Virus record (IMG/VR): IMGVR_UViG_3300035010_000009
Location: 1-34,151 of that record
Direction: 5' to 3' (one strand)
DNA length: 34,151 bases
From: a virus
In this document: positions 884-5,166 of the stretch, in pieces
Layout: every line of letters starts with the position of its first letter
Numbering within the stretch: position 1 is the first letter of the stretch
The notes under the pieces: generated by a model
Databases searched by the model: none
Told to the model about the DNA's origin: nothing
Seen by the model: the letters and a program-made list of their open reading frames with translations, nothing else
Program-made: the position numbers and the translations under genes

Positions 884-1726
884 TTAAAAATCAGCAATAA
901 GTCCCTGATTGTTAGCAAGTTGCCTTAAAAGAGTCTTAATTTGATGCGATTCAGCTTCCAGATGGTTTATTCTACCATATAAATCAGATGGGTCAGGGAA
1001 TTCAAATTTAAGTGCTGATTTGAGTTCCCAAACTTCTTTTATGTGTTCAGGATCAATACTTATGTTCGGATAACTGGCTTTATCCAGATTATCAGATTTA
1101 CAAACTAAATTATTATACTTTTTTATTCTATTCAGGCATCTCTTTATCAAAACACCGTCTTCCATTTTGTCTCCATCATCATAGATGATAATGTAAATTC
1201 TACCGTCTTTAATATTATTCACCCAATTATCAACCCATTCTCCTACAGCAATGCTTTTACTCGGAAGAGTATTTCCCATTGATTGGCCTTTAACTTCAAA
1301 CATTCTAAAAATACCGTTATTAATTGCCGGCAAACGGTAGCTCGGAAGTGTTCTTATGAATTCAGGCTTATAATAGCCGTTTAAATATCCTGCTCTAGCT
1401 TTAACCGGAACAAGCACGATATTGTCATCATTATGAGAATCTACAGTAATTACCTGAGGTACTCTATTTTCAAATGATTGTGGAGTATTTTGAATTTTGA
1501 CGAGATTTTTATTTGCCAACATTGGTTCAATGCCTAAAAGAAGCCATTCGAAACTTATTTCGAACTTTTTTGCAATTCTCTCAATTATATTGAATTTTGG
1601 TTCAGTTCCATTAATGTAATTTCTGACATTTGCCTCATTTACATCGATCATTTTACCAAATTCTGAATTATTTCCGTGTGCAAAATGCTCTACAAGCTGC
1701 TTAATTCGAAAATTTATTGTACTCAT
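884..1726 (-). CDS. LexA/CI-type phage repressor (HTH + S24 peptidase-like)
   Basis: This 280-residue protein has an N-terminal helix-turn-helix (about residues 20-45, with SEFGKMIDVNEANVRNYING) and a C-terminal S24/LexA-like domain. Visible hallmarks are a likely Ala-Gly self-cleavage site at 112-113 (KARAGYLNG), the catalytic Ser149 in GQSMG and the catalytic Lys195 in GVLIKR. Proteins of this family bind operators as dimers, keep early phage genes off and can cleave themselves when RecA is activated by DNA damage. It is transcribed away from the early operon, as the Mu c repressor is, and its start lies 17 bp from the first of three palindromic sites at 1743-1775. Function in lysogeny is therefore a strong inference. 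A coiled-coil-like tail occupies about residues 250-275. Confidence 0.9.
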   Translation of the reverse strand: MSTINFRIKQLVEHFAHGNNSEFGKMIDVNEANVRNYINGTEPKFNIIERIAKKFEISFEWLLLGIEPMLANKNLVKIQNTPQSFENRVPQVITVDSHNDDNIVLVPVKARAGYLNGYYKPEFIRTLPSYRLPAINNGIFRMFEVKGQSMGNTLPSKSIAVGEWVDNWVNNIKDGRIYIIIYDDGDKMEDGVLIKRCLNRIKKYNNLVCKSDNLDKASYPNISIDPEHIKEVWELKSALKFEFPDPSDLYGRINHLEAESHQIKTLLRQLANNQGLIADF

Positions 1727-1742: not shown

Positions 1743-1775
1743 CTTTTTCGAAAAAGTTTTCGAAAAAAGTTTCGA
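1743..1775. promoter_or_regulatory. Three-site operator between repressor and early operon
   Basis: Three TTTCGA-centred sites have dyad centres at 1749.5, 1761.5 and 1773.5, exactly 12 bp apart. The first is a perfect 14-bp palindrome (CTTTTTCGAAAAAG), the second a perfect 10-bp palindrome (TTTTCGAAAA), the third degenerate (TTTCGAT). The third overlaps the -7 element of the early promoter, so repressor bound here would block it. Confidence 0.7.
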
Positions 1776-1781
1776 TATTTG
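1774..1781 (+). promoter_or_regulatory. Probable early promoter -7 element
   Basis: GATATTTG matches the Bacteroidota TAnnTTTG -7 box at all but the first base. It would start transcription near 1788, about 36 bases before the ATG at 1824. No clear TTTG -33 box is seen; the upstream bases are filled by operator palindromes. Confidence 0.45.
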
Positions 1782-1823
1782 TACTGTTATCAAGACAAAA
1801 GTAAGACAAAAAATAGACATAAG

Positions 1824-2096
1824 ATGAGGGAAACCGTAAAAACCGTAAAAATACCTACTAAATCAAGGTTTTCATATACTCCGAAAAACAAGGAAGAAAA
1901 ACAACATTTGGAGGCTTTAGAAACTCTTTTAAAAGAAAAAAGGCGTGGAGACTGGTTGCTTGTGGCCGAGATCGTGGGAATTTCCTCAGCATCGGCAGAA
2001 AAAGCATTTTTCAGGGTTTTTCAGAAACATCATTTTGAAGTTGTAGAAGCTCTGAAAGACGTAATCAATAAACGGAAAGAACTTTTAATGAAATAA
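1824..2096 (+). CDS. Small basic protein, first gene of the early operon
   Basis: I start this 90-residue protein at the ATG at 1824. The frame also opens at a TTG at 1779, but that lies within the promoter and operator DNA. The protein is Lys/Arg-rich; residues about 45-65 (LLVAEIVGISSASAEKAFFRV) could form a helix-turn-helix. In Mu this position is held by Ner, a small DNA-binding regulator of the early promoter. That analogy rests on position and a possible HTH only, as no clear sequence match is recognised. Confidence 0.7.
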   Translation: MRETVKTVKIPTKSRFSYTPKNKEEKQHLEALETLLKEKRRGDWLLVAEIVGISSASAEKAFFRVFQKHHFEVVEALKDVINKRKELLMK

Positions 2097-2246: not shown

Positions 2247-2318
2247 ACAGAGGAATGCTCAAGGCTGACGAGTTGGTCTCCAAAACCGACTGGGTGGGTT
2301 CGATTCCCACTCTCTGTG
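2247..2318 (+). tRNA. tRNA-Trp(CCA)-like gene, atypical D arm
   Basis: The 72-nt element folds as a cloverleaf. The 7-bp acceptor stem (2247-2253 with 2311-2317) has one G.T. The anticodon stem (2273-2277 with 2285-2289) holds the loop CTCCAAA with anticodon CCA at 2280-2282. A perfect 5-bp T stem (2294-2298 with 2306-2310) carries the loop TTCGATT. The A1-U72 pair and the G73 discriminator at 2318 match bacterial tRNA-Trp identity. The D arm is irregular: CTC/GAG (or GCTC/GAGT) abuts the anticodon stem without base 26, and base 8 is A rather than U. CCA is not encoded. It fits exactly between the small ORF and the transposase. It may be a divergent phage tRNA or a decayed tRNA-like structure. 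Confidence 0.65.
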
Positions 2319-2332
2319 CAATTACTAAAGAA

Positions 2333-4309
2333 ATGAAAACTTATCTATATCATAACAATATACTCTCTATCCCCGCGAGTCTTCTTTATGAAGACTGGGC
2401 GGTGATGAGTTATAGCAATTATAATATAAGATGTCACAGAAGGCAATTGATAAGAAGCCGTGAGGGAAAAGGAGCAGGAAATGAAGCATTATTAAGTTTT
2501 TACCACTTACCTCCTGAGTTACAGGAATTGTGTATCGAAAAACTTGGAAAACCTGAGGAGGTTACAGTAATTAATTTGTTGGAACCTTACATTGAATTTG
2601 ATAAAAACGCTTCTAAATACTATGCAGATCACAGAACGCCTGAAGGCAAATCAATAAGTCCTGAAAAACAGAGACAACGCACATTAAATTGCTGCATTTT
2701 AAATGCTATTCAAACCATATTTAAAGACAATGGTGTAGCAAATAAAATGTTCGGAAAGCGAAAAATGAAAATTTGGGACAACGTTTCAGATGCAGTAAAC
2801 AAATTGGATACAAAAAAATGGGATCATAGTTTACCAACTGCAGCAAAGAATCTCAGATTAAGATATAATGATTATCTAAAAAATGGATATCAAACATTTA
2901 TTCATAAAAATGAGGGTAATCAGAATACAACTAAAATTAAAGGTGATGTAGCTGATTTTATACTGGCTTTTTATAGTCTCCCGATAAAACTTACAATTCC
3001 GATGGTCTTGAGTAAGTACAACGAAGTAAAAGAAGAGCGAAATTTCCCAGAACTCACTGAGGCTGCCATTTATAAATGGCTATATGAACCAGAACAAGAA
3101 AGAATCTGGACACTGGCAAGACACGGCAAAGAAGCATATAATAATAAATATCAGCATAAGACATCAATCGATAAAAGTGGATGGTTCCCTAATATATATT
3201 GGGCGATTGACGGAACAAAGCTTGACTGGATTCACTTTGAAGGTTCCAAATCAAACAAAATGGCTGCCTCATTAAGAATCAATGTGATATTTGATGTTTA
3301 CAGCGAGAAAATTATCGGCTGGAGTTTCTCAGAGTCAGAAGATCATACGGATCACTTCAAAGCAATGAAAATGGCAGCACAACACGCCGGACACAGACCA
3401 TATTTATTTACTTATGATAAACAGTCAGGACACATGTCTGCGAGAATGCAGGAGCTTTACAGCAATGTTGTTGCCAAAGATGGAGGAACTCATTACTCTC
3501 ACCGAGCAAGAAGCCACAGCAGTCCGGCCGAGGGTCTGTTCAAAAGGTTGCAGCAGGAAGTTATTACGAAGTTTTGGTTTTCAGATGGTCAAAGCATAAC
3601 TGTAAAACGAGATGATAATAAAGTAAATACTGATTTTATTTTAGAAAATCAACATCATCTGAAAACTAAGGAGGATTTATTCAGAGCGTGGGAAACTGCA
3701 GTACAAAAATGGAATTCGGCAAAACATCCACATTTCAATGAAAGCCGAACAGCAGTTTATGCACACCCAATGAAGCAAAAAGAACCTCTTACCCTTCCTG
3801 AAATACTTTCTTATATGTGGGTTGAAGAAAGTAAACCGATCACTTATAAAAATGATGGTCTTACAATGAAGCTTAAAGGAGAAACTTATCAGTTTGAGGT
3901 ATACAATCAGGATAGAACAATTGACACGGAGTTCCGCCGAAAAAACATTGGTAAAAAATTCATTGTGCGATATGATCCGGATAATATGGATGTTTTCGTC
4001 CAGCTCTACGAAATAACACCGGACAAACAAAAGATTTTCAGTGCAAACGCGGAACCGAAAAGGAAACAAGTCAATATTCCGATCCTTATGGATGAAGCAG
4101 ATAAAAAGGTTTGGGCGATTGATTACAAAATAAGGGAGGAGGAATTCAAAAGAGATTTAGAGGCCGTTGAAGCTTTAAGAAAAAGAACAGGAATCACACC
4201 TGAAAAGCTTATACAAGAGCAGGATTTAGATATAAAATTCAAAGGCTCCGCTCCAAAAAAACAAGCCATTGCAATGGATGCAGAATCAGCAATACTTCAC
4301 AGAATTTAA
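2333..4309 (+). CDS. MuA-like DDE transposase
   Basis: The product is 658 residues from the ATG at 2333. The same frame opens 78 bases earlier at 2255, but that extension only translates the tRNA-like element. The catalytic core carries the DDE triad: Asp293 in WAIDGTKLDW, Asp362 in LFTYDKQSG and Glu400 in SSPAEGLFKRLQ, with rve-type spacing. The N-terminal about 250 residues should hold DNA-binding domains and the C-terminal about 150 the Mu-type beta-barrel and partner-binding tail. Its length is close to MuA (663 residues). It cuts and joins phage ends during integration and replicative transposition, working with the ATPase gene 11 bases downstream. Confidence 0.93.
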   Translation: MKTYLYHNNILSIPASLLYEDWAVMSYSNYNIRCHRRQLIRSREGKGAGNEALLSFYHLPPELQELCIEKLGKPEEVTVINLLEPYIEFDKNASKYYADHRTPEGKSISPEKQRQRTLNCCILNAIQTIFKDNGVANKMFGKRKMKIWDNVSDAVNKLDTKKWDHSLPTAAKNLRLRYNDYLKNGYQTFIHKNEGNQNTTKIKGDVADFILAFYSLPIKLTIPMVLSKYNEVKEERNFPELTEAAIYKWLYEPEQERIWTLARHGKEAYNNKYQHKTSIDKSGWFPNIYWAIDGTKLDWIHFEGSKSNKMAASLRINVIFDVYSEKIIGWSFSESEDHTDHFKAMKMAAQHAGHRPYLFTYDKQSGHMSARMQELYSNVVAKDGGTHYSHRARSHSSPAEGLFKRLQQEVITKFWFSDGQSITVKRDDNKVNTDFILENQHHLKTKEDLFRAWETAVQKWNSAKHPHFNESRTAVYAHPMKQKEPLTLPEILSYMWVEESKPITYKNDGLTMKLKGETYQFEVYNQDRTIDTEFRRKNIGKKFIVRYDPDNMDVFVQLYEITPDKQKIFSANAEPKRKQVNIPILMDEADKKVWAIDYKIREEEFKRDLEAVEALRKRTGITPEKLIQEQDLDIKFKGSAPKKQAIAMDAESAILHRI

Positions 4310-4320
4310 AAGTTATAGAT

Positions 4321-5166
4321 ATGAAAGATACAGAAAAACAAGCCATCACAGGCGAATTGAAAATACGATTAAGAAAAGGAGAAAGCCAAAATTCACTTGC
4401 ACTCAGGTGTGGAGTTTCATCAGCAACAATTTCTCAGATGATAAACAGAAACTGGACTTTAATTGCTGATAAAATGTGGAGAAGAGTAATGATTGCACTA
4501 AAGATTGATTTCACATGGCAAACTGCAGAAACTGAAAACTTCAAAATGTTGATTGCTCTTCTAAATAATTGTAAGCAAAAAAGTATTAGTGTAGCAATCG
4601 CACACGATGCAGGAGCCGGAAAATCACACACGTATTCTCATTATGAAAGACAGGTTGAGAATGTGTTTTATATAGAATGTAAAACCTTTTGGACTCGCAA
4701 AAATTACATGAAAAATCTCCTGCAGAATTTCGGCCTTCCTAATGATGGTAGCATCGATGTAATGGTAGAAAGATTAATTGATTATCTGGAAGGTTTAGAA
4801 AAGCCGATTGTGATTATAGATCAACTCGACAAGCTGAATGACAGCTCACTTGATTTGTTCATGGATTTTTACAACCCTTTGGATGGATATTGCTCCTTTG
4901 TTGTTTCAGGAGTTCCTGCTTTAAAAAAGAGAATTTTGAGAGGTTGCCAGCTCGATAAATCCGGTTACAAAGAGTTTTACAGCAGAATTGGTAAAAACTT
5001 CATCTATCTGGATGATATCACTCTAAAAGATGTGGCTTTGATCTGTGAGGCAAATGGTTTGACCGATGAAGACACTATTAATCACATTTTCAATATATGT
5101 GATGGAGACCTTAGAAGGGTAAAAAGAGAGATTCAGAAATACTTCATGACTAAAAAAGTGGCTTAA
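4321..5166 (+). CDS. MuB-like AAA+ ATPase, transposition target selector
   Basis: The 281-residue protein has an N-terminal helix-turn-helix (about residues 22-45, NSLALRCGVSSATISQMI), a Walker A motif HDAGAGKS at 95-102 and a Walker B motif IVIIDQLD at 163-170. This is the MuB/IstB-like layout of an N-terminal DNA-binding part and a AAA+ ATPase. MuB forms ATP-dependent filaments on target DNA, brings target to MuA and provides target immunity. The gene lies directly after the transposase, as in Mu. Confidence 0.88.
   Translation: MKDTEKQAITGELKIRLRKGESQNSLALRCGVSSATISQMINRNWTLIADKMWRRVMIALKIDFTWQTAETENFKMLIALLNNCKQKSISVAIAHDAGAGKSHTYSHYERQVENVFYIECKTFWTRKNYMKNLLQNFGLPNDGSIDVMVERLIDYLEGLEKPIVIIDQLDKLNDSSLDLFMDFYNPLDGYCSFVVSGVPALKKRILRGCQLDKSGYKEFYSRIGKNFIYLDDITLKDVALICEANGLTDEDTINHIFNICDGDLRRVKREIQKYFMTKKVA

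Follow-up and report, generated by a model that had tools for sequence, protein, structure and literature searches.

Within mitochondrial transcripts, tRNAs that lie between genes mark the sites at which the RNA is cut, an arrangement known as tRNA punctuation. The phage elements described here resemble these marks in being tRNA-shaped and intergenic, but the mitochondrial marks are working tRNAs, whereas the elements are mostly top halves incompetent for decoding and are carried by DNA phages. Hairpins composed of an acceptor stem, a T-stem and a T-loop are efficient substrates of RNase P RNA (PMC11143913), and along the acceptor/T stack RNase P measures off a fixed distance, starting at the elbow (PMC4919913). 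AT1-type model substrates of this design (PMC11143913) likewise have the acceptor stacked on the T-stem, a T-loop and a 3' tail that is read by the enzyme; however, they are laboratory constructs, whereas the phage elements are natural and intergenic in operons. RNase P also processes transcripts other than tRNAs, including bacteriophage M3 RNA, C4 antisense RNA and an E. coli polycistronic mRNA (PMC11143913), but these are isolated cases and not a repeated family placed before successive genes. The tRNA mimics mascRNA/menRNA (RF01684) and the tRNA-like structures of plant viruses are also cut by RNase P, but they belong to other hosts, lie near the 3' ends of transcripts and have no sequence relation to the phage elements (RF01684 gave only 13.1 bits on an element from a Porphyromonas gingivalis phage). 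RNase P cuts in mRNAs and organelle tRNA punctuation are already known, and the minihelix family of phages described below is apparently undescribed: the minihelix had no Rfam match, and a literature search outside subscription journals found no published description of the element.

The window analysed here is the whole stretch of 34,151 nucleotides that makes up positions 1 to 34,151 of the IMG/VR virus record IMGVR_UViG_3300035010_000009. Across its entire length ARAGORN called a single tRNA, a tRNA-Trp with anticodon CCA at 2247-2319 (+), in agreement with the initial annotation, which had proposed running this program and had read acceptor, anticodon and T arms with CCA, A1-U72 and G73 from the sequence (Table 1). 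All three arms are present, as are U33 and the T-loop, and the acceptor and T stems form a continuous stack of 7+5 bp with the T-loop TTCGATT, which fits the RNase P substrate type of approximately 12 bp. The D arm had been described as abnormal; it is irregular but apparently not lost, and a stem GCTC-AAGGCTGAC-GAGT is possible. Compared with host tRNA-Trp, this region reads AAT-GCTC-AAGGCTGAC-GAGT, in which the GG at 2263-2264 is the equivalent of G18-G19, AAT replaces the two nucleotides 8-9 and the 3' strand of the arm competes with the anticodon stem. In the alignment with host-type tRNA-Trp, the acceptor, T and anticodon stems have diverged with pairing preserved, and the anticodon loop, A1-U72 and G73 are retained. 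The window element is a real, diverged tRNA-like element and, to judge from this alignment, looks to be of tRNA-Trp ancestry with compensated stems.

Table 1. Coordinates of the tRNA-like element and of neighbouring features in the window, with one element of a hankyphage (numbered in that phage)
Feature	Position	Strand	Basis or remark
tRNA-Trp-like element, putative pre-tRNA mimic	2247-2318	+	ARAGORN; RF00005 23.3 bits; best descriptor match
Acceptor stem	2247-2253/2311-2317	+	7 bp, A1-U72, G73 = 2318
Degenerate D arm GCTC-AAGGCTGAC-GAGT	2257-2273	+	Sequence; alignment with host-type tRNA-Trp
Anticodon loop CTCCAAA	2278-2284	+	Anticodon CCA 2280-2282, per ARAGORN
T-arm	2294-2310	+	T-loop TTCGATT
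T-arm and 3' acceptor strand	2294-2317	+	Half kept among relatives; R1 matches the T-arm
3' tail G73-C-A	2318-2320	+	Form common to host pre-tRNA genes and other phage elements
HTH repressor-like gene	884-1726	-	HTH_3 22.8 bits, just below cut-off 23; divergent from early operon
First early ORF, 90 aa	1824-2096	+	No Pfam match
Small early ORF, 46 aa	2100-2240	+	Ends 6 nt before the element
MuA-like DDE transposase, 658 aa	2333-4309	+	Pfam rve 28.6 bits, below cut-off 32.6
MuB-like ATPase, next early-operon gene	4321-5166	+	Pfam AAA_22; 49% to Peternella_1 transposase B
Hankyphage tRNA-like element	p00 1767-1848		Before an early gene other than MuA

The element scores 23.3 bits with RF00005, under the gathering cut-off of 29 and below the 41-75 bits of the listed host tRNAs. 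The Rfam gathering scan of the window returned nothing above threshold. A tRNA-Sec (RF01852) was rejected at 30.9 bits, below its own cut-off of 47 and with anticodon CCA, not UCA, and an intrinsic terminator was rejected because no T run follows the hairpin, GCAATTACTAAAG coming next. The folding energy of the element (z -1.84 versus shuffles) is weak evidence taken alone. The anticodon arm, identity elements and cloverleaf order are common to canonical tRNA-Trp (RF00005) and the window element, from which the latter differs by its score below cut-off, its odd D arm and its placement as an intergenic mark. A working, diverged phage tRNA-Trp gene, transcribed together with the early genes and aminoacylated by the host TrpRS, would explain why anticodon CCA, the CTCCAAA loop, A1-U72 and G73 are kept and why the acceptor, T and anticodon stems pair despite their divergence. 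However, the sub-threshold score and irregular D arm argue against such a gene, as do other elements in the same slot with aberrant or no anticodon arms, which indicate that decoding is not the common function, and we regard this reading as unlikely.

The gap between the small ORF and the MuA-like gene spans 2241-2332 (92 nt), and the element had been described as filling it. Its intergenic, same-strand position directly before an early gene was confirmed, but 6 nt separate it from the preceding stop codon, which ends at 2240, and its G73 is followed by 14 nt (C74, A75 and a further 12) before ATG 2333 begins. An ORF start at 2255 was rejected as the start of the MuA-like gene, as it falls inside the element and the A proteins of relatives begin at the residue matching 2333. 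The MuA-like transposase matches that of Peternella_1 at 43.5%, and the 46-aa ORF has by-eye similarity to the small ORF that precedes the element in L045. The stretch that separates the early operon from the repressor-like gene contains repeated TTTCGA(AAA) motifs (1741-1785), which are perhaps operators.

MuA homologues were gathered from IMG/VR, GTDB genomes and named phages, and the 75 unique MuA loci of this transposase homology set include 27 with a tRNA-like element in the 230 nt that precede A, compared with 1 of 1820 shuffled upstream regions; 27 is probably a lower bound, as the scan is blind to loops without TTCRA, and does not equal the number of independent gains, as some of the loci are related. 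The inspection of this slot in relatives that the initial annotation had called for thus gave a positive result, and its remark that a tRNA at this spot lies outside the classical Mu plan is true for Mu itself, but the arrangement is recurrent in Bacteroidota Mu-like phages. Given the shuffle rate and the scan of the window with an acceptor plus T-arm descriptor, in which the element ranked first (16.3, runner-up 13.3), the window element is not a chance match. No element was found in the 230 nt upstream of A at 48 of the 75 loci or at L082 and L083, the two nearest MuA relatives of the window, and the element is therefore not needed for A expression generally. The gap between ORF and A in Winogradskyella phage Peternella_1 is just 8 nt and contains no element. 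A search for the exact tRNA-Trp piece of the window element in IMG/VR gave no match. The lack of an IMG/VR relative with this piece and of an element in the closest MuA relatives would suit the chance capture of a tRNA-Trp gene that is now decaying and without function, but stems that pair despite divergence and elements of like shape that recur in the same slot make such a remnant extremely improbable.

The elements found in this slot take several forms. Many Flavobacterium prophages have a GC-rich element directly before A, invisible to ARAGORN, in which an acceptor strand, a short linker, the T-arm, the second acceptor strand and AAC follow one another, as in TCCCGCC-ACGGCTTTG-CGTGG-TTTCGACA-CCACG-GCGGGA-AC. 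The canonical form TCCCAAACGGTTTTTT-GGAGCGG-TTCGATT-CCGCTCC-TGGGA-ACA occurs at further loci. In L047, L060, L136, L203 and L214 a slot of this kind holds a longer tRNA-like element, and another such element, before MuA in L228, has an anticodon-like CAT; L209 carries a tRNA-like element and a minihelix in tandem. A point against reading the elements as processing marks comes from some phages of Flavobacterium, where the gene preceding the element is oriented oppositely; the element would there belong to a leader transcribed from a putative promoter. Upstream of MuA in L003 and L091 the same outer form TTCCCG...CGGGAAC encloses a loop without TTCRA, and comparison of the two suggests covariation in the inner stem. 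An F. geliluteum prophage has a tRNA-like element after A and shortly before an ATG (G001:C68:184618-184692; L281 4119-4194); ARAGORN calls it tRNA-Phe, and its anticodon arm is degenerate.

The majority of the elements are minihelices of 40-45 nt, consisting of an acceptor and T-arm of 11-12 bp in total, a T-loop, a GG linker and a 3' R-C-A. A pattern search in which the linker and T-stem were left free matched 107 viral stretches, many of them multi-copy. Arrays of tRNAs on unrelated contigs (L139, L147, L152, L169, L183, L190, L195) were set aside by eye, GC-rich chance matches to the pattern were excluded in the same way, and 26 of 84 unique pattern matches, most of them unrelated, failed a 4-bp T-stem test. 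Full records contain 1-6 copies, always on one strand within a record and mainly in the early region. In five maps, most copies lie a few nucleotides after a stop codon and ahead of an ATG, either ahead of A or, beyond A-B and a DUF3164-like gene (label taken from the Peternella_1 annotation), among small accessory genes. Model R1, built for the minihelix family, matched only the T-arm of the window element (11.8 bits, E 0.42) and gave no whole-model match; the window element is therefore no sequence member of that family, and its link to it rests on position, top-half shape and tail. The traits common to both are the slot, the strand, the top-half geometry and the tail.

The order of accessory genes around the copies varies between related phages (L276, L277, L278, L280), copies inside one phage are nearly identical, and L032/L066 contain three tandem copies 465 and 613 bp apart, of which the first two each precede a plus-strand gene, then a minus-strand gene and then the next element. 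These arrangements would agree with a recombination or cassette boundary acting at the DNA level (attC-like or by simple homology), at which accessory genes upstream of A are exchanged and the hairpin is folded DNA or incidental. However, the conserved positions are those of tRNAs (G53-C61, TTCRA, GG, R73-C74, 11-12 bp), the elements show compensatory changes, a host pre-tRNA tail and one strand per record, and an unsystematic look through the early regions read noticed no recombinase besides the transposase, so that we consider a DNA boundary quite unlikely. A host-wide repeat was likewise judged unlikely, the model matching 8 of the 249 Flavobacterium genomes and, in another genus, 2 of 36; the count from the large host-genome search is a lower bound, as its stricter filters missed known G001 copies.

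The elements vary in sequence and are nearly constant in geometry. Among 58 unique elements with at least 4 T-stem pairs, whose T-stem had played no part in the search pattern, each of T-stem positions 2-5 occurs with 4-5 different pair types. For a nine-pair structure on an alignment of 40 diverse sequences (A4), the covariation score was 0.42 versus 0.099±0.016 for shuffled alignments and at most 0.12 for slid structures, with 54 double-change cells versus 14 shuffled; as the A4 sequences were hand-picked and many were already-pairing matches, this covariation is support and not a blind test. The initial annotation had looked to cloverleaf covariance in homologous prophages as a check: it was found for the acceptor and T arms but does not extend to the anticodon arm, which is not conserved. 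The anticodon half has loops of 8 or 4 nt, is replaced by another hairpin or lacks its arm altogether. Acceptor and T stems sum to 11-12 bp in 103 of 108 elements, mainly partitioned as 7+5, 5+7, 5+6 and 6+6, the upper bound of this stack length being built in by a descriptor that permitted 10-12 bp. One G of the linker GG is invariant and the other present in at least 90% of the 40 diverse sequences, in a stretch unconstrained by the search; this GG could be a stand-in for G18-G19 of the D-loop.

Bacteroidetes tRNA genes are mostly without a templated CCA (PMC5143459). In the tRNA genes of host genomes G001 and G672 (L296-L325), CCA is not encoded, with one possible exception; all 35 of them carry C at N74, and 33 carry A or T at N75. 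The phage elements end in R-C-A or R-C-T, including most of those recovered without a 3' constraint, although in some rows the tail register is off by one, as the program chose a stem one pair too short or too long. Since this tail extends beyond the stems and discriminator base, what it resembles are tRNA genes and hence precursors, and the G-C-A of the window element agrees with the host pre-tRNA form. In arrays, most elements end 10-30 nt before an ATG, and the leader after them is A-rich (51% A). Shine-Dalgarno sites are scarce in Bacteroidota. This spacing and leader are compatible with an RNA element that is left uncut, the tRNA-like fold of which would make the 5' end more stable or attract ribosomes or a protein to the next gene; however, the conserved tail and stack length suit pre-tRNA processing better than translation, and an uncut element appears highly unlikely.

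The minihelix consensus had no match in the plasmid collection and none over more than 80% of its length in the phage collection; despite this null result, divergent forms in named phages surfaced on reading upstream of MuA. Flavobacterium columnare phage fF4 has two elements, before the transposase and before a later early gene, and in Elizabethkingia phage TCUEAP3 one copy lies 15 nt ahead of MuA and another further on. In Mu-like phages of Porphyromonas gingivalis a tRNA-like element lies directly before MuA in all seven examined; that of BK068094 scores 47 bits as a tRNA, but its anticodon loop, judged by eye, has 8 nt, and BK068091 and BK068093 have another hairpin in place of the bottom half. 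Hankyphages p00, BX-TP2 and jmh72_hp carry one element between two early genes, with an anticodon hairpin that differs between the phages. The feature tables of these named-phage records annotate no tRNA or ncRNA at the elements. The element can be used to correct annotated gene starts: in the region 3096-3184 of P. gingivalis phage BK068094 (L284), the annotated transposase start at 3111 lies inside the element, and the likely start is ATG 3184 (MELYNNLLCL). A separate Rfam match, to c4-2 RNA (RF02944, 44.6 bits), was seen at 4384-4462 of L151; in other phages, C4 RNA is cleaved by RNase P.

Taken with these relatives, the window element is probably a pre-tRNA mimic that marks the early mRNA in cis for processing. 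As the bottom half may be a Trp arm, an aberrant loop, a replaced hairpin or absent, decoding cannot be the common function, and the constant elbow, near-constant stack and precursor tail point to RNase P-type processing, as RNase P uses these features. The early transcript would extend from the side of the repressor-like gene across the small ORFs to A and B, and the element would fold in it as a tRNA top half with a 12-bp acceptor/T stack, a T-loop/GG elbow and an R73-C74 tail. RNase P, or possibly RNase Z, would take this fold for a tRNA precursor and cut beside it, and the cut would split the small-ORF message from the A-B message and give the latter a defined 5' end; we infer the transcription and cleavage of the element, the identity of the enzyme and the effect on expression. 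Of the options offered by the initial annotation, the tRNA-mimic processing signal is thus supported by slot, constant top half, covariation and tail, whereas tRNA-Trp decoding is not as a common function. Against the processing mark, the window element keeps tRNA-Trp identity features that would be superfluous for a pure mark. A recognisable tRNA-Trp anticodon arm is still present in this copy, whereas the bottom half is lost or replaced in most relatives. The window copy is filed here as a full-length form working like the other elements, with a smaller chance that it additionally serves as a tRNA-Trp.

On balance, we lean towards a general tRNA punctuation code in transposable phages of Bacteroidota, in which top-half mimics, up to six per genome, would divide the early mRNA by means of host RNase P or Z, full elements like that of the window being an ancestral or alternative form. 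If true, RNA-seq of hankyphages should show RNA ends at p00 1767-1848, and the elements would make up an RNA family widespread among phages whose bacterial hosts live in the gut, the mouth and water, and would be the equivalent in nature of the minimal RNase P substrates familiar from the laboratory. They suggest a way in which phages of Shine-Dalgarno-poor hosts may separate and tune their early genes.
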